From Methanobacteriota archaeon (GTDB lineage: Archaea > Thermoplasmatota > Thermoplasmata > Methanomassiliicoccales > Methanomethylophilaceae), in NCBI GenBank assembly GCA_029574055.1, contig JAKQBQ010000155.1:1-8046 (forward strand): a stretch of 8,046 nt of DNA, written 5' to 3'. Shown piece by piece: positions 2,259-8,046 of this stretch. The first letter of the stretch is position 1, and every line of letters starts with the position of its first letter. The position numbers and the translations under genes are program-made. The notes beneath the pieces were generated by a model. It did not search any database. It was not told where the DNA came from and worked only from the letters and a program-made list of their open reading frames with translations.

Positions 2259-3020
2259 ATGTTCGAGGTACACGTCCTTGCAAGCGGCAGCGATGGGAAC
2301 TGCGCCATCATCCAGTTCGAGGACGAGGCGGTGATGATCGACGCCGGCATCAGCTGCAAGAAGACCATTGAGCTGATGGAAAAGGAAGGCGTAGACCGCA
2401 AGGTGCTGAAAGCCCTTCTCATCACCCATGAGCATACCGACCACATCGGCGGGGCCGGCCCGGTCTCCAGGAAGTTCGACATACCCGTCATGTGCAACAG
2501 GGCCACTTTTGAGAACAGCGACATCGGCAACGTTGCGTACGCCGAAATAAAGACCATGGGTTCCTTCTGCGTCGGAAGCATGAACATCACCCCCCTCCCC
2601 ACATCCCACAACGCCGTCGAGCCGAACGCCTTCTTTGTGGAGGCCGGCGGGAGGAGCGTTCTGGTCGCCACGGATACGGGGAAGCTCACATTCCAAGTGG
2701 AGCACGCGCTTAAGCAGGCCGATGTGGCGGTCATCGAATCGAATTACGACAAGAAGATGCTCGCCAACGGCCCTTACCCCCTATACCTCAAGAATCTGAT
2801 CGCCAGCGACATGGGCCATCTGTCCAACACGGATTGCGCCGGAGCGATAAAGAGGACGATGAGAGAAAACCGGCAAATATTCCTGGCACATTTGAGCAAG
2901 ACCAACAATGAGCCCGATCTTGCCAGAGATACCGTGTCGGAATTGACGGGGATCAAAAGACTGTGCATAGATTGTCTCGAATTCCCGGGAGACACCAGGA
3001 CCATCAGGGTCCGGGGCTGA
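2259..3020 (+). CDS. Metallo-beta-lactamase-fold hydrolase, WalJ/YycJ-like
   Basis: A 253-residue cytosolic metallo-hydrolase. The metal-binding motif THEHTDH is at residues 56-62, followed by a conserved histidine at 117 (TSHNA), an aspartate at 139 (ATDTG) and a histidine at 187 (GHLSN) or 211 (AHLSKTNN). The block ESNYD (160-164) followed by NGPYPLYLK and MGHLSN is characteristic of the YycJ/WalJ branch of the fold, whose members are thought to act on nucleic acids; the substrate here is not known. The length is normal and all expected ligands are present. Translation starts at ATG 2259, three bases after a GAGG that overlaps the upstream stop codon. The last 17 bp overlap the end of the convergent GINS gene. 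Confidence 0.93.
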   Translation: MFEVHVLASGSDGNCAIIQFEDEAVMIDAGISCKKTIELMEKEGVDRKVLKALLITHEHTDHIGGAGPVSRKFDIPVMCNRATFENSDIGNVAYAEIKTMGSFCVGSMNITPLPTSHNAVEPNAFFVEAGGRSVLVATDTGKLTFQVEHALKQADVAVIESNYDKKMLANGPYPLYLKNLIASDMGHLSNTDCAGAIKRTMRENRQIFLAHLSKTNNEPDLARDTVSELTGIKRLCIDCLEFPGDTRTIRVRG

Positions 3021-3777
3021 ACAGGACCGCTTTTTCCCTGTTGATGAGCGCGACAGCCATCGCCTTCGGCATTCTCACTATGTCTTCTTTGGACAGGTCG
3101 TAATTCCTGTCCGGGCCGGAGAAAGGCGGAAGGTCCTCAAGGATCCTTATGACCACCATCTCCTCTTCCGGTTCTTTCTCTTTGGGCTTTTCATGCAGCT
3201 GTTCGATGGCCCACTCATCCTCCGGCTCTTCGGCGGCCAGTTCCTCGATCATCTCTTCCATGAGGGGATCCGGCAAGACCTCTGTTATTTCCTCAGCCGG
3301 CTCAGGCTCGGCCGCTGCAGGCTCAGGCTTCTTCTCCTCGACCACGGGGTCCGGAACGATCGGAGGAGTGTCGAACTTCCGTTTGCCGGTGAGCTTGTCC
3401 ACAATACCCAGGTGCCTTCTGGATATATCTAAAATATGATCATAGTATTCACGCTCTTCCGGAGTGAGATTGTCCAATTTGTTCTGGCTGCCCCTTGCGC
3501 CGAGGAGGGCGAGGGACGAGATCTTCTCCATCCTAAGCTCGGTGATCTCCTTTGCCATGGAGGCCGCTTTTTTCCGGTGCTGGTTGGCCCCTTCGCACAT
3601 TATCGAATCGGGATCGGCGGAAAGATGCTTTTCGTACTCAGACCTTAGCAATACGATAAGGCGGGCCATTGCAGGATAAAGATCCCTTCTTACAGCCGAC
3701 AGGCTGCGGGAGCTTTTCTCCATCCGGTATACGGTGCCCAGATCCTCATAGGTCATTTGGTCGGAGTTCTTTGACAT
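3004..3777 (-). CDS. Archaeal GINS complex subunit (Gins51-type)
   Basis: A 257-residue replication factor. The N-terminal helical A domain (about residues 8-130) is followed by a long low-complexity linker rich in Glu, Pro and Ala (about 140-205) and a small C-terminal beta-rich B domain (207-253) with VVIRILEDLPPF and a DIVRMP..MAVALI segment. A-linker-B order is typical of the Sld5/Psf1-like Gins51 subunit. GINS joins Cdc45/GAN and MCM in the replicative helicase. Thermoplasmatales are known to use a Gins51 homotetramer, so a partner gene need not be nearby. A TATA box centred about 27 nt upstream makes the ATG at 3777 probably leaderless; ATG at residue 8 is an alternative. The acidic linker is long, with no sign of frameshift. 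Confidence 0.9.
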   Translation of the reverse strand: MSKNSDQMTYEDLGTVYRMEKSSRSLSAVRRDLYPAMARLIVLLRSEYEKHLSADPDSIMCEGANQHRKKAASMAKEITELRMEKISSLALLGARGSQNKLDNLTPEEREYYDHILDISRRHLGIVDKLTGKRKFDTPPIVPDPVVEEKKPEPAAAEPEPAEEITEVLPDPLMEEMIEELAAEEPEDEWAIEQLHEKPKEKEPEEEMVVIRILEDLPPFSGPDRNYDLSKEDIVRMPKAMAVALINREKAVLFSPGP

Positions 3778-3990: not shown

Positions 3991-4089
3991 ATGGACGATG
4001 CACGCGAAAGAGCTGTTGAATACCCGGATGACGCATCCGTTGGCACTTATCGTAAAGGACACGCGTCCTTTACTTCGAAGATGGAGTGA
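3991..4089 (+). CDS. Small ORF (32 codons), possible leader peptide
   Basis: ATG 3991 is preceded by a strong GGGAG (ending at 3980) with a 10-nt gap; an in-frame ATG at 3982 is only 1 nt from the same GGGAG and is less likely. The peptide is hydrophilic and charged (it begins MDDARERAVEY) and matches no family I recognise. Its last third contains a perfect 9-bp hairpin (4052-4073), and its TGA (4087-4089) lies 5 nt before the ATG of the membrane protein, directly after that gene's GGAG (4083-4086). This layout suggests translational coupling or leader-type control. A chance open frame in a long 5' leader is the main alternative. Confidence 0.4.
   Translation: MDDARERAVEYPDDASVGTYRKGHASFTSKME
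4052..4073 (+). promoter_or_regulatory. Perfect 9-bp hairpin before the membrane-protein gene
   Basis: GTAAAGGAC (4052-4060) and GTCCTTTAC (4065-4073) enclose the 4-nt loop ACGC. The stem ends 9 nt before the GGAG at 4083-4086 that serves the ATG at 4095. There is no T-run after it, so it is more likely to affect translation or RNA stability than to terminate transcription. Confidence 0.4.
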
Positions 4090-4094
4090 TCATC

Positions 4095-4862
4095 ATGGAA
4101 CCTCTTGTGGTTTCGGCTATAGCCATGATCGTCTTGTTTGTGCTGTTCGCAGCGGCATTGTATACCACATTGAAATACGGAAAGCACAGAAGAAAGGCAG
4201 TTTCTATCATGAACAAAGCGAAACTGATAGCCTATTGCATCCCGTTGATTGTTTCCGTTCTTTTAACAGCTGTCTTCCATCAGGAGCTGAGGGAGTACTT
4301 GGTCGCGCCTATGTGGAGCGTTGGCTTCGGAGTAATAGCCTTTGTCATCCTGTTCGATGTTTTCGAATCGAGAAAGGCAGGACGGTCGGAAGGAGATGAG
4401 ATGCAGCTGCGCTGGTTGTGGGGTTCGGCCCAGGGCGTGATGTACAGGGAGCGGGTGAAAAGCGCTGTTGTCATCGGTCTCATTTGGGGAGCGGCGGTAG
4501 CCGCAGTGGCCATTGCTTCATGGGACGAGCACCACGGCCTGGGATCCCTGATGTGGCTGATCTTTCCGCTGGTGATCATGGTAGTAGGGCTTTTGACATA
4601 TGTAGGGCATCGCAAGATGATGATCGGATACAAAACGAGGACAAAGGAGGAACAGGACAAGTACGATCTCAGATTGGCCTCTTCCTGCGTGGGGATATTC
4701 TTTGTGATATTCTCATTTCTCATGTTCCTGATGGATCTGCGGCCATTCACGATCGGCATCTGGATAGTTTGGGTGACAGCGATCATTGCAGCCGCGTGGT
4801 TCATATTCATGTTCGCCTACGTCTACCCCAAAACGTTCAAGGCAGACAAGGCGAGGACATGA
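4095..4862 (+). CDS. Seven-helix membrane protein with DUF3784-like C-terminal half
   Basis: A 255-residue integral membrane protein. Hydrophobic segments lie at about residues 4-24, 43-61, 72-90, 121-142, 151-171, 195-213 and 218-243. A cytosolic-type loop at 172-192 contains GYKTRTKEEQDKYD, resembling the GYNTMSKEEKxKYD signature of DUF3784 proteins, and two helices follow it. The first 100 residues are a separate unit, matched along their length by the adjacent 105-codon paralogue (shared MNK..I..Y..PLIVSV and ILFD.FES blocks), so the protein looks like this unit joined to a DUF3784-like unit. ATG 4095 is chosen over GTG 4086 because GGAG lies 8 nt upstream. No transport or enzymatic motif is visible, and the function is unknown. 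Confidence 0.82.
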   Translation: MEPLVVSAIAMIVLFVLFAAALYTTLKYGKHRRKAVSIMNKAKLIAYCIPLIVSVLLTAVFHQELREYLVAPMWSVGFGVIAFVILFDVFESRKAGRSEGDEMQLRWLWGSAQGVMYRERVKSAVVIGLIWGAAVAAVAIASWDEHHGLGSLMWLIFPLVIMVVGLLTYVGHRKMMIGYKTRTKEEQDKYDLRLASSCVGIFFVIFSFLMFLMDLRPFTIGIWIVWVTAIIAAAWFIFMFAYVYPKTFKADKART

Positions 4863-4932
4863 CGCCGCAGGCAAGTTGCGGAGTTCAGCCGCTCATAAAA
4901 AGCATACGTTTGACGGAGGATAGGTGCTGAAC

Positions 4933-5118
4933 ATGGATCCAATGCTAATCATCGCTGTATCGGTCACAGTGATCTGGGTCGGACTGTTGTACGTACAGGG
5001 GCGCATGCAGGAGAAATATACGGGATGCAGGAAAGAGGCATTCAGAGCAATGAATAAAACAAGGATTATTGTGTACGGCACTCCTTTGATCGTGTCTGTT
5101 TTTACTCTAACTCGGTAA
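4933..5118 (+). pseudogene. 5' part of a paralogous small membrane protein, cut by the IS
   Basis: Codons 1-57 (4933-5103) align without gaps after the first residues with the N-terminal unit of the gene just upstream: Y..C/HRK.A...MNK....I.Y..PLIVSV. A signal-anchor-like helix covers residues 4-22. At 5104 the frame enters the insertion sequence and ends at a TAA inside the left terminal repeat (5116-5118), adding four foreign residues. A GGTG 6 nt before ATG 4933 supports that start; GTG at 4924, 3 nt after a GGAGGA, is an equally plausible alternative that adds three residues. The remainder continues at 6774. Whether the truncated 61-residue product is still made is unknown. Confidence 0.85.
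5100..5103. repeat. Target site duplication, left copy (TTTT)
   Basis: TTTT directly precedes the left terminal repeat and matches 6770-6773 directly after the right one. A run of five T residues makes the exact phase slightly ambiguous, but removing one 4-bp copy restores the broken reading frame. Confidence 0.7.
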
Positions 5119-5133
5119 ATTGGGGTATAACTT
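5104..5133 (+). repeat. IS terminal inverted repeat, left
   Basis: It has three conserved blocks: ACTCTAACT (5104-5112), GGTAA (5114-5118) and GGTATAACTT (5124-5133). All are matched in the complement of 6740-6769, with five mismatches in the spacers. The inner block recurs in the transposase promoter. Confidence 0.92.
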
Positions 5134-6623
5134 CATGAAGAGGCGGCGGGAGCCTTCGGCTTCCGCCCCCTATTCTTCTTGATTCCGTCAAGCCTGTCTC
5201 GATCGTCCCGAGTGCTGTACATGAACAATCCCAGCTTCGCGTCCAGGTCCCTCACGTCCTTCGGGACGACCTGCCTCATATCCGCGTTCCCTTCCATTAT
5301 TTTCATGGTCCCGTACACATCGAGGACGTCCTCGGGGGTCATGGATCCCGAAAGATCGGCATCATCCAGCAGCTTGGCTATCTCGAAACGCACCAGCATC
5401 GCTACGAACGTTATGAAGAGATGGCCCATGACATGGTTGTCGTCATGCATGTACGTCCTGTCCGCCGAAAGGACGTTCTTCCCCGCATCGAAGAAATTCT
5501 CGATCTCGCTCCTCGCCTTGTACAGCCTGTATATCTCCTTGGGGTCGGCCTCCATCGACGCTATGATGACGAAATTGCCGGCTTTGTCGATCTTCAGTTC
5601 CCTGTCCGGGTCCCTCTCCCTTGCTTTCAGCGCGTCCACCAGCTCGTCGTTCCTGCTGTCCAGGTTCTCGAAGCGGTACGCCCATTCCTCTTCTCCGAGA
5701 CGACTGCGGCCGTACGCCACGGCGGAATCCCTCCACCTGAATATCCCGTCCTTCGTACCCGTCACATCATACACTTTCGAGTTGCGTTTGACCGCGACGA
5801 TGTAGTCCAGGTCCTTTTCCCGGATCGCGTCAAGGAGCTTCCTATCATGATATCCACGATCCATCACCAGGACCGTACCTTCCGGTATGTCGAACTCGTC
5901 CAGCATGCTTACGGCGGAACCCTCCTTGATGTTGCCCGGCACCACTCTCATATACTGCGGCCGGCCGGAGGCCAGGCCGCATACCGCCAGCAGGTTGAAC
6001 TGCGGACAGGAGAGTCCGAAGCGGTTGTACCCGGATTTGTTCATGAACGCCCCTCTCGCTTTAGAGAAGATCACGGACATGTCGACAGCCATCTCCCCGT
6101 CCTCCGTCGCGATGTTGTTGAAGAACAGGTCCTGAGAGCCTCTCGCCGCGCCCACCCGCTCCAGCGTCTGCGATAGGCTCTTCGGAGAAGTGTTCGGGCG
6201 TAGATCCAGCACATCCTCCAGCCTGTTCCAGCACCGCCCGCATTTGTTCAGCTCGCCTCTGCCCAGGCATCTGGCGAAAACGAGTTCGACGATCTCCCGA
6301 TGATCGTTGGGAAACGCCTTCTTCAGAGGCTCCGCTATCTTCTCCGCGGCCTTGGCAAGCAGCCTCGCGCTGCCGCTGTCACGAACATCGGTTATATCAA
6401 CGCGCGAGCGCATCGGCCTCGGAGGGGTGACGGTGCCGTCCGGATTGAGAACTCCGCGGTACTCGGAGACCTTCCTTCTCTTCTTCGCTTCCTTATCCCA
6501 CACGGTGGTGGCCCACTTCAGATAGTGAACCCCGCCCTTCTTCTCCACGGTCAGGCCGGTATTCCCCGCTTTACGCTGCTCCTCAAGCCAGTCCCTCGCC
6601 CATTGATCAGGTTCGCATCCCAT
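5133..6623 (-). CDS. DDE transposase, IS4/IS1634-type
   Basis: A transposase of 496 residues from ATG 6623. Catalytic residues, numbered from this start: first Asp 181 in VDMSVIFS, second Asp 255 in VLVMDRGYHD, and the Y-x2-R-x3-E-x6-K signature as Y368, R371, E375 and K382 in YKARSEIENFFDAGKN. All three acidic residues are present, and the C-terminus ends in a basic tail (KKNRGRKPK). A longer frame opens at ATG 6662, but its first 13 codons run through a TATA box (6647-6654) centred about 27 nt from ATG 6623, so the shorter, leaderless start is preferred. An 18-bp palindrome between the TATA box and the start carries a copy of the IS terminal-repeat block, suggesting that the transposase represses itself. 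Confidence 0.93.
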   Translation of the reverse strand: MGCEPDQWARDWLEEQRKAGNTGLTVEKKGGVHYLKWATTVWDKEAKKRRKVSEYRGVLNPDGTVTPPRPMRSRVDITDVRDSGSARLLAKAAEKIAEPLKKAFPNDHREIVELVFARCLGRGELNKCGRCWNRLEDVLDLRPNTSPKSLSQTLERVGAARGSQDLFFNNIATEDGEMAVDMSVIFSKARGAFMNKSGYNRFGLSCPQFNLLAVCGLASGRPQYMRVVPGNIKEGSAVSMLDEFDIPEGTVLVMDRGYHDRKLLDAIREKDLDYIVAVKRNSKVYDVTGTKDGIFRWRDSAVAYGRSRLGEEEWAYRFENLDSRNDELVDALKARERDPDRELKIDKAGNFVIIASMEADPKEIYRLYKARSEIENFFDAGKNVLSADRTYMHDDNHVMGHLFITFVAMLVRFEIAKLLDDADLSGSMTPEDVLDVYGTMKIMEGNADMRQVVPKDVRDLDAKLGLFMYSTRDDRDRLDGIKKNRGRKPKAPAASS

Positions 6624-6626
6624 GAA

Positions 6627-6644
6627 TATACCATATATGGTATA
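6627..6644. promoter_or_regulatory. 18-bp palindrome in the transposase promoter (putative operator)
   Basis: TATACCATATATGGTATA is a perfect palindrome lying between the transposase TATA box and its ATG at 6623. Its right arm extends into GGTATAACT (6639-6647), identical over nine bases to the inner block of both terminal inverted repeats. A protein that binds the IS ends could therefore bind here and block transcription. Confidence 0.5.
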
Positions 6645-6646
6645 AC

Positions 6647-6654
6647 TATTTAAA
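6647..6654 (-). promoter_or_regulatory. Transposase TATA box
   Basis: The minus strand reads TTTAAATA, centred about 27 nt upstream of the ATG at 6623. It overlaps by one base the GGTATAACT copy at 6639-6647. Confidence 0.55.
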
Positions 6655-6739
6655 CCCTTCAATCCCTTTACTCCGAGTCACGAACGACAACATGCCAGAT
6701 CGTCCCTGTTGCAAAACATCGTCACCGTCCGGCGTCAAA

Positions 6740-6769
6740 AAGTTATACCTTACATTACCAAGTTAGAGT
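6740..6769 (-). repeat. IS terminal inverted repeat, right
   Basis: Its complement begins ACTCTAACT, then GGTAA, then GGTATAACTT, matching the left end at 25 of 30 positions. The 95 bp between it and the transposase promoter hold no other gene. Confidence 0.92.
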
Positions 6770-6773: not shown

Positions 6774-6920
6774 ATTATAGCAATATTCTATCAGCAAATG
6801 TTGGAGTACCCTCTATCCTTCGCATGTGTGTTCATTGTCCTCTGCGGGTTTTTAGCTGGGTCAATTCTTTTTGACACGTTCGAATCAAAGAGGATCAAAC
6901 TGTCAAAAACCGGTGAATGA
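6774..6920 (+). pseudogene. 3' part of the IS-split small membrane protein
   Basis: This 48-codon frame, starting IIAIFYQQMLEYP and ending in KLSKTGE before TGA 6918-6920, continues codon 57 at 5103 without a frame change. It aligns with residues 56-100 of the gene at 4095: IFYQQMLEY with VFHQELREY, and ILFDTFESKR with ILFDVFESRK. It contains the third hydrophobic segment. The rebuilt protein is 105 residues and stops where its neighbour continues into the DUF3784-like half, so the ancestor was a short protein. An internal ATG at 6798 has no convincing ribosome binding site. Confidence 0.85.
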
Positions 6921-7004: not shown

Positions 7005-7304
7005 ATGCTTGTCGAAGATGTTGTCAGAGTGACCGATTCGGGAGTGGAGGCGGACGTCCAGGTATCGCCGAGATCCGGAAGGTCCAGGATCGAGGGGATC
7101 GACAGCTGGAGGAAAAGGCTGATCGTAAAAGTAAGGTCGCCCCCGCTGGACGGAAAGGCGAACGCCGAAGTGGAGGAGGTGTTCCTTGAAGCAACAGGCT
7201 TCCCGTCGTCGATAATCTCAGGGCATACGAACAGGCAGAAAACCGTCCTCATTCGAGGAAATGCAGAAGCAATAATCTCAAAGCTGAGGGATGTAATTGG
7301 ATGA
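7005..7304 (+). CDS. DUF167 (YggU-type) family protein
   Basis: A 99-residue protein of the DUF167 family. The signature VSPRSGRSRIEG (20-31), LIVKVRSPPLDGKAN (39-53) and SGHTNRQKTVLI (72-83) follows the family pattern of PRS-x-G, APP-DGKAN and SG-x-S/T-R-K. These are small alpha/beta proteins found in bacteria, archaea and eukaryotes with no firmly established function. ATG 7005 is the first start after an in-frame stop at 6978-6980; an AGG directly abuts it, too close for a normal ribosome site, so leaderless initiation is possible although no clear TATA box was found. The last 8 bp overlap the next gene, so the two are probably translated together. Confidence 0.9.
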   Translation: MLVEDVVRVTDSGVEADVQVSPRSGRSRIEGIDSWRKRLIVKVRSPPLDGKANAEVEEVFLEATGFPSSIISGHTNRQKTVLIRGNAEAIISKLRDVIG

Positions 7305-8046
7305 TGTCGAACGCCTGGAAGAGATCGAAGAGGTCATCGAAGAGCTCAGGGAACTTTCAAAAGACCACGTGATCCTCACCGAAGGCCTCAGGGACAAGAA
7401 GGCTCTGGAAGCGTTAGGGATAAAGGGAGACATATTCCTGATACAATCGGCCGCCGGGCCGCTGAAGGCCGCCGAGTATGTCGCCGGCCGCAAAGGAAAA
7501 GCCGTCATACTGACGGACTGGGACAGAAGGGGAGGGACGATCGCGAACGATCTGGAACTTCAGCTGTCTTCATTGGGGGTTGAGCACAACATCGAGATCA
7601 GGGCGAAGCTCTCCCGCCTCTGCAAGAGATACATAAAGGACGTCGAATCCCTGAACACAATGCTGGAAAGGCTGTCGTCAAACGCAAGCGGTATTAAAGC
7701 AGGACATGATATCATTCTCGACGGTGAGTTTCTGAAAGGGGCGTTCCTTGTTATAGAGGGTATCGACGGGGCCGGCAAATCCACGCTCTGCGAGCTGCTG
7801 GAGAACATGCTCAAGGGGGAAGGGTACAAAGTAATGGTGACCCAAGAGCCGACGCATGATGAGATAGGGATGTTCATAAGAGAAGGGAAGGTCAAAGGCA
7901 TATCTCAGAAGGCGGAGGCCCTTCTGTTCGTGGCGGACCGCGCCGTACACACGGAAAGGATATCGAAGTGGGTGGAGGAGGGGTTCGTGGTCATATGCGA
8001 CAGGTATTTCGCATCAACCGTGGCATACCAGTCCTCCGGGTTCAAC
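7297..8046 (+). CDS. Toprim domain (UPF0292-type) fused to thymidylate kinase, partial at 3' end
   Basis: One open frame of 250 codons runs from TTG 7297 to the window edge. TTG is chosen because GAGGG (7286-7290) lies 6 nt upstream and no in-frame ATG precedes the first domain. Residues 1-145 resemble archaeal UPF0292 Toprim proteins: VILTEGLRDKKAL (25-37) with the catalytic-type Glu29, and AVILTDWDRRGG (69-80) with the DxD pair Asp74/Asp76. From residue 149 the frame reads as dTMP kinase: FLVIEGIDGAGKST (150-163) with the P-loop, QEP (183-185), LLFVADRAVH, and DRYFASTVAYQ (235-245), the nucleotide-binding DRY motif. dTMP kinase converts dTMP to dTDP for DNA synthesis; the Toprim part may bind or cleave nucleic acid, or be structural. 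No stop or frame change separates the halves. The C-terminal part of the kinase is beyond the window. Confidence 0.9.
   Translation, partial: MDDVERLEEIEEVIEELRELSKDHVILTEGLRDKKALEALGIKGDIFLIQSAAGPLKAAEYVAGRKGKAVILTDWDRRGGTIANDLELQLSSLGVEHNIEIRAKLSRLCKRYIKDVESLNTMLERLSSNASGIKAGHDIILDGEFLKGAFLVIEGIDGAGKSTLCELLENMLKGEGYKVMVTQEPTHDEIGMFIREGKVKGISQKAEALLFVADRAVHTERISKWVEEGFVVICDRYFASTVAYQSSGFN

Follow-up and report, generated by a model that had tools for sequence, protein, structure and literature searches.

At its 3' end the window, by which the whole analyzed stretch of 8,046 nucleotides is meant, carries a Toprim domain that runs without interruption into the 5' part of a dTMP kinase. This raises the question whether the two form one genuine gene and, if so, what the joint between them does. 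The fusion is real and its parts are ordinary, and the point of interest is a probable gene start hidden in the joint.

A single open frame for a Toprim domain and a dTMP kinase

The following features of the window were considered for the frame and its surroundings:
7005..7304, + strand: DUF167/YggU gene, COG1872 type (PF02594, 62 bits, cut-off 30.9, scored on 7026-7304)
7297..7686, + strand: Toprim domain of the UPF0292/PRK04017 type, residues 1-130, with Glu29, Asp74 and Asp76
7732..8046, + strand: 5' part of the dTMP kinase domain, truncated by the contig end (PF02223, TIGR00041)
7759-7782, + strand: kinase P-loop, GIDGAGKS, residues 155-162
7999-8007, + strand: kinase DRY motif, with Asp235

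Positions 7297-8046 of the + strand form a single open frame of 250 codons that begins with TTG and contains no stop, as the earlier note on this DNA had claimed, and 0 of 2000 base shuffles of the same stretch remained open. The residues highlighted in that note, Glu29, Asp74/Asp76, GIDGAGKS at 155-162 and Asp235 of DRY, were all found at the positions given. The Toprim half (residues 5-130) was compared with the NCBIfam PRK04017 models (UPF0292 type) and scored best with NF003091 (102.2 bits). Because this profile score is below the curated cut-off of 129, the Toprim half is classified by its profile as UPF0292-type and not as a member. PDB entry 1t6t matched it with an E value of 6.8e-07, and no Pfam Toprim model was obtained at E 0.001 in a Pfam profile search of the window frame. 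The kinase part contains both the P-loop and the DR(Y/H) motif of dTMP kinases; it was above the cut-off with Pfam Thymidylate_kin (PF02223, residues 153-246, 92.2 bits, cut-off 27) and, despite the missing C-terminal half, also with TIGR00041 (102.4 bits, cut-off 83.25). Upstream, the last 8 bases of the DUF167/YggU gene are shared with the beginning of the fusion at its TTG; a DUF167-like gene likewise precedes Toprim in the unfused genomes that were read, e.g. G010, G142, and G117.

The end of the window is the end of its contig (G000:C88). The rest of the gene was located on contig C68 of the same assembly, which shares a 21-base overlap with the window end. On C68, the kinase frame reaches a TAG about 33 codons past the overlap, and homologous sequence resumes one base out of frame; the frame change corresponds to a one-base shift near an A5-G3 run (L066, about 6000-6010). 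Since the window gene is the sole PF02223 match in its assembly (completeness 69%), and since Tmk is essential in known organisms, an assembly error on C68 appears likelier than a dead gene. The LID and C-terminal part of the kinase lie outside the window and are found in relatives, 36 of 37 of which have SK(F/Y)E; the reading frame on C68 is shifted by one base. The kinase is followed on C68 by coaBC, a pantoate kinase-like gene (profile matches under cut-off), and the genes of two synthetases, PRPP synthetase and prolyl-tRNA synthetase; small ORFs are interspersed.

Two further loci of the window were recorded. An IS1634-type transposase is encoded at 5133-6662 (- strand, 113.5 bits, cut-off 100) in an element bounded by 35-nt inverted repeats (5104-5138 and 6735-6769); by eye, the element seems to split a membrane-protein gene (pieces near 4924-5118 and 6800-6919) that resembles an intact copy at 4086-4862. 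A GINS-type replication protein is encoded at 3004-3777 (- strand; Sld5 28.8 bits, over the cut-off; Gins23 40 bits, below the cut-off), and a GINS-type gene was seen near the Toprim/kinase locus in 12 of 17 genomes of the genus in the stretches read.

Distribution and origins of the fusion

Orthologues with the same domain order, regarded in the earlier note as the mark of a real fusion, proved to be numerous. A search of 5.8 billion proteins yielded 643 relatives, and among the best 120 of these the alignment extends over 89% or more of the query in at least 37 (P0001-P0037). One of these 37, P0024 from Candidatus Methanoplasma termitum, is annotated as putative thymidylate kinase, a name that omits the Toprim domain. 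No account of an archaeal Toprim-thymidylate kinase fusion and no archaeal literature on toprim and small primase-like proteins were found in the open-access library searched.

In the genus of the window (Methanoplasma group), the fusion is present in 10 of 17 genomes, with the copies of G000 and G063 cut by contig ends. The idea that a sequencing error hides a stop at the joint does not hold, as nine other genomes of the genus share the open frame; the same recurrence rules out an assembly error at this site, and pyrrolysine incorporation or stop read-through is ruled out by the lack of any stop codon in the fused frame. The halves are not fused in the other seven genomes. In G017 and G061, the Toprim and kinase genes overlap out of frame, and in G069, G037, and G044 they are separate genes. 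In G066 and G064, the Toprim gene adjoins other genes, with the kinase on a different contig in G066 and not found in G064 in the scan of the 17 genomes. The free Toprim gene of these two genomes (L068 5453-9717 and L069 1326-5469) is located upstream of genes for ribose-1,5-bisphosphate isomerase (over the cut-off) and a type III RuBisCO-like protein (368.9 bits, below the cut-off of 497); in G064, AMP phosphorylase is also present.

Among the matches listed for the 102 genomes scanned from the family, three of which gave no match, 15 genomes are fused: the 10 of the Methanoplasma group and 5 of the 31 of genus g4 (G080, G084, G089, G091, G092). Several g4/g12 relatives in which one in-frame stop, TGA or TAA, separates the genes were excluded from this count. 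Outside the order, the matches listed for a phylum sample of 145 genomes include none that spans both domains. The fusion is lineage-specific and, in the genomes searched, restricted to two genera of one family.

Trees place the fused groups of Methanoplasma and g4 apart. The Toprim+kinase tree comprised 56 of the 102 family genomes, with the fused metagenome proteins P0027-P0037 left off; in it, the fused Methanoplasma genomes and G064/G066 form a group with a support of 95 (73 when the tree was built from seven genes of the neighbourhood), and G084 groups with the other g4 fusions at a support of 82 and has a different linker. Because of the separation of the two groups and the differing linker of G084, we infer that the fusion arose two or three times among the genomes in the tree, with at least two origins. 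The nesting of G064/G066 within the fused clade is poorly supported (≤65 in the seven-gene tree, ≤71 in the Toprim+kinase tree). A "linker scar" in G066 was rejected as proof of secondary fission, as the linker is probably the old kinase leader, which can be retained without an earlier fusion.

Gene order and the case for a functional partnership

For comparison, 16 genomes were chosen from the remaining families of the order. Toprim and tmk share contig and strand within about 5 kb in 16/16 of them and do not touch in 15/16, the two being adjacent in G117. The glycine decarboxylase gene gcvPA (NF001696) was over its cut-off in 11 of the 16 genomes and located between Toprim and tmk in 11/11. 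Both gcvPA and gcvPB were confirmed at this position in G142, G135, and G008 (loci L171, L172, L175), of which G008 belongs to the window's own family. A search for gcvPA at E 1e-20, with a model that matches 10 of 14 control genomes, found the gene in 0 of the 17 genus genomes. Many of these 17 assemblies are incomplete, and the gene is missing from 5/5 of those of good quality. Because gcvPA intervenes in 11/16 genomes yet was found in 0/17 of the genus, its loss probably brought Toprim and tmk together. This loss by itself does not cause fusion, since the five gcvPA-less genomes of the other families (G102, G103, G105, G117, G120) remain unfused: their Toprim-tmk gaps are shorter, no match in them spans both genes stop-free, and in G102 a different gene on the opposite strand separates the two. 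We propose that loss of gcvPA-gcvPB placed the Toprim gene beside tmk and that frame changes would then have merged the 5' leader of the kinase into the Toprim reading frame. In G017 and G061, this same leader stretch is shifted by one base relative to the fused genomes.

Gene fusion is usually taken as evidence that two proteins cooperate. The Toprim domain might work on DNA or RNA while the fused kinase supplies nucleotides, and such channelling would fit with a fusion that arose at least twice in one family and with catalytic motifs that are mostly kept (P-loop and CDRYF in 37/37 relatives, EGx(K/R/N)D in 37/37, TDWD in 35/37, with TYWD in P0017 and ADWD in P0023 as exceptions). It is highly improbable in our view, as the halves are separate in 7/17 genus genomes and in most of the family, gcvPA usually parts the genes in the other families of the order, and beyond the order none of the listed matches from the 145-genome sample combines the domains. 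In addition, dTMP kinase yields dTDP and not the dTTP used by polymerase. The distribution argues against a required Toprim-kinase partnership. The tie between dTTP supply and replication or repair suggested in the earlier note appears to have little support: the fusion occurs only in two genera of one family in the genomes searched, close relatives are split (G066) or out of frame (G017, G061), and the genes lie apart in 15/16 other-family genomes, with gcvPA between them in 11. Juxtaposition after loss of the intervening genes would explain the arrangement at lower cost, so that a functional tie is not supported.

Synonymous constraint at the linker

Between the two domains, the joint contains the following features:
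7684..7731, + strand: linker, residues 130-145, for which disorder is predicted in the relative P0024; the strongest synonymous constraint of the gene falls within it
7684..7698, + strand: conserved nucleotide block GCAAGCGGTATTAAA with a weak archaeal promoter-like (BRE/TATA) match, matrix score 4.6
7723..7728, + strand: Shine-Dalgarno-like (SD-like) GGTGAG, duplex energy -8.0 kcal/mol
7732..7734, + strand: ancestral kinase start position, residue 146, CTG, from the alignment of fused genes; proposed internal start

The 10 fused coding sequences (mean pairwise nucleotide identity 74%) were aligned by codon and evaluated in 8-codon windows (n = 340), the score being the excess of same-codon use at aligned identical amino acids over the codon-usage prediction. 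The four highest-scoring of the 340 windows lie over residues 128-138 and reach 0.93-0.98 (mean of all windows 0.26, sd 0.17), and columns 129-136 rank first whichever single genome is dropped. Three separate peaks stand out: 0.98 in the linker, 0.76 at the 3' end, and 0.75 at alignment columns 141-148, the last coinciding with the old kinase start position; the remainder are at ≤0.55. Because the 3' end of the gene overlaps the start of coaBC, its peak serves as a built-in positive control. Residues 132-133 are encoded by GGT and ATT in 10/10 fused genes, in which GGT accounts for 12% of the Gly codons and ATT for 10% of the Ile codons. In a random-column test with columns picked after the scan, the value was 1 of 20000 sets.

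An AlphaFold2 model of P0024 (60-sequence alignment) gave confident domains with a mean pLDDT of 90.6, and their mutual placing is uncertain (pTM 0.63). Values of pLDDT <50 were confined to residues 131-146, i.e. the linker, and a structured protein role therefore does not explain the linker constraint. As the strongest codon conservation sits on the residues that the model gives as least structured, it points to a signal at the level of DNA or RNA. The constraint could also be accommodated by a plain fusion that is made as full-length protein only, in which the linker nucleotides would be conserved because of features of its own codons or mRNA. In agreement with this, the frame has stayed open in 10 genomes at 74% identity, the linker residues SGIK and FLKG are conserved as amino acids too, and the g4 fusion of G084 lacks an internal ATG. 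Nevertheless, we consider a plain fusion unlikely, since a linker predicted to be disordered is under the strongest synonymous constraint, and since the same nucleotides precede the kinase in G066, where Toprim is elsewhere, and in G017/G061, where it is out of frame.

A promoter matrix built from 21 tRNA promoters of G004 was applied to the same region. The block CAAGCGGTATTAAA is the best promoter-like match within 75 bases, in the same register, in 8 of 10 fused genes; the match in this register is second in G051 and third in G058. The block scores 4.6-5.0 bits versus 1.9-15.9 for the training promoters (18/21 at 9 or more), and with some 60 positions scanned per gene a 99.7th-percentile promoter match is not rare. 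Only the second-best, shifted match touches the block in G066 and G017, and in G061 the best match touches it with a score of 0.3. A promoter as sole cause of the constraint was not accepted because of the weak score given by the 21-tRNA-promoter matrix, and a promoter in the linker block is regarded as possible only.

The old kinase start inside the joint

The free kinases P0050-P0052 begin with MKGAF/MRGAF at the position matching residue 146. The codon of this residue is CTG in nine and TTG in one of the 10 fused genes, and G066, G017, and G061 also carry CTG there; the old start is NTG in 13/13 genus sequences retaining the leader. In fused proteins of the Methanoplasma type, residue 146 is Leu in 25/26 and Met in 1/26, and the preceding residue varies. 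As 1 of 19 other conserved Leu columns is likewise entirely NTG, this conservation by itself is only suggestive, and start codons of the CTG type are poor ones. The idea of a separate kinase start near 7741, considered in the earlier note, was borne out insofar as an ancestral start lies nearby, at 7732-7734, but it is now CTG, and no stop precedes it.

The old start is preceded, at a distance of a few bases, by a purine-rich SD-like sequence (GGTGAG, GGAGAGTGGG). With the anti-SD that we assumed, the duplex energy is -8.0 kcal/mol for the window and -9.2 to -11.6 kcal/mol for the other nine fused genes; the coaBC starts used for comparison (three matched of six loci given) gave similar or weaker values of -7.1 to -9.7 kcal/mol. 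The SD-like sequence of the window is the weakest of the ten, and 3 of 23 other in-frame NTG codons score equally well. With respect to other in-frame NTG codons, the old start ranks first in G004, G067, and G068 and is equalled by 1 to 6 codons elsewhere (6/41 in G062). The nearest unfused kinases of the genus, in G069 and G037, have an ATG start and no SD (0.8 and -1.1 kcal/mol), so that an SD does not generally accompany this gene; the unfused kinase of G044 has an SD-like sequence (-10.3 kcal/mol).

Relatives in which the leader is found outside an in-frame fusion serve as natural comparisons. The kinase of G066 keeps the block, the SD, and the CTG although Toprim is on another contig. In G017 and G061, Toprim ends with GRK-stop, and the kinase frame continues through the same leader; there is no ATG, GTG, or TTG between the Toprim stop and the P-loop, and an in-frame ATG inside the Toprim end could start the kinase. 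Because these three genomes keep it, the leader is retained whether Toprim is fused or not. The g4 fusions of G080, G089, G091, and G092 have an internal ATG preceded by GAGG (-5.9 to -9.8 kcal/mol).

In the out-of-frame relatives, the kinase might alternatively be obtained by programmed frameshifting or from a start in the Toprim end, with the block as a recoding signal or dual-frame remnant. The Toprim stop of G017 (L070) and G061 reads AAA TGA T, at which a +1 shift enters the kinase frame, and protein P0054 begins at an ATG such as the one in their Toprim ends. However, in-frame fusions, which need no shift, show high constraint on the block, it precedes the G066 kinase without Toprim, and the out-of-frame state was observed in two genomes only. 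This explanation is therefore very unlikely.

Predicted products of the fused gene

The reading towards which we lean, if only slightly, is a real in-frame fusion in which translation of a second, free kinase likely also begins at the joint. The leader would have kept its job, with ribosomes also starting at the CTG/TTG at 7732, and a free kinase of approximately 197 residues would be made beside a fusion of approximately 342 residues; a weak promoter may lie in the linker block as well. In both forms the kinase would make dTDP, and the Toprim domain would act as an independent metal-dependent nucleic-acid enzyme. This dual output of fusion and free kinase is a prediction. A more far-reaching version, with one gene giving two enzymes by design, namely the fusion and an essential free kinase from a nested CTG/TTG with its own SD and a vestigial promoter, is put forward tentatively, with a chance that we place just short of even.

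An enzyme taken as essential would have been swallowed by the frame of its neighbour, and its leader seems to be selected at the nucleotide level inside a coding sequence. If true, an essential gene can undergo fusion yet keep its own expression, caution is needed in inferring function from fusions alone, and the working leader of a swallowed gene offers a new route to gene-within-gene coding. The locus is small enough to serve as a convenient test of CTG-initiated internal translation in archaea and, if proven, would join the very few examples of internal in-frame translation in this domain of life.

Comparison with known systems

The kinase half resembles thymidylate kinase (Tmk, PF02223/TIGR00041) in its P-loop and CDRYF and, in fused relatives, in SK(F/Y)E; in structure, the P0024 model is matched best by the Tmk enzymes of Aquifex and Thermotoga. 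Unlike free Tmk, it has an N-terminal Toprim domain, and in the Methanoplasma type CTG/TTG (Met in one protein) replaces the ATG of the free kinases. The Toprim half has the same domain and the Glu + DxD residues of UPF0292/PRK04017 Toprim proteins; unlike P0120, a free Toprim subdomain protein of 141 amino acids from Methanomethylophilus alvi, it is fused to tmk.

According to a report on Haloferax volcanii, cas8b gives Cas11b by internal in-frame initiation behind a potential SD, with a start at ATG that was demonstrated by mutation and mass spectrometry (PMC11899642). In the fused genes, the candidate counterpart is the in-frame NTG present in 10/10, with SD-like energies of -8.0 to -11.6 kcal/mol. 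In contrast to Cas11b as described there, the putative start is CTG/TTG, and the fusion joins two unrelated enzymes. Bacterial tmk overlaps holB as the upstream partner with separate frames (PMC10653934), and GeneTack places a thymidylate kinase cluster under translational coupling (PMC3711429); the sections consulted in these two sources do not mention a Toprim-tmk fusion. As far as these sections go, the locus shares with both systems a close translational coupling of tmk to its neighbour, whereas, unlike in tmk-holB, the frames are fused here and tmk forms the downstream part.
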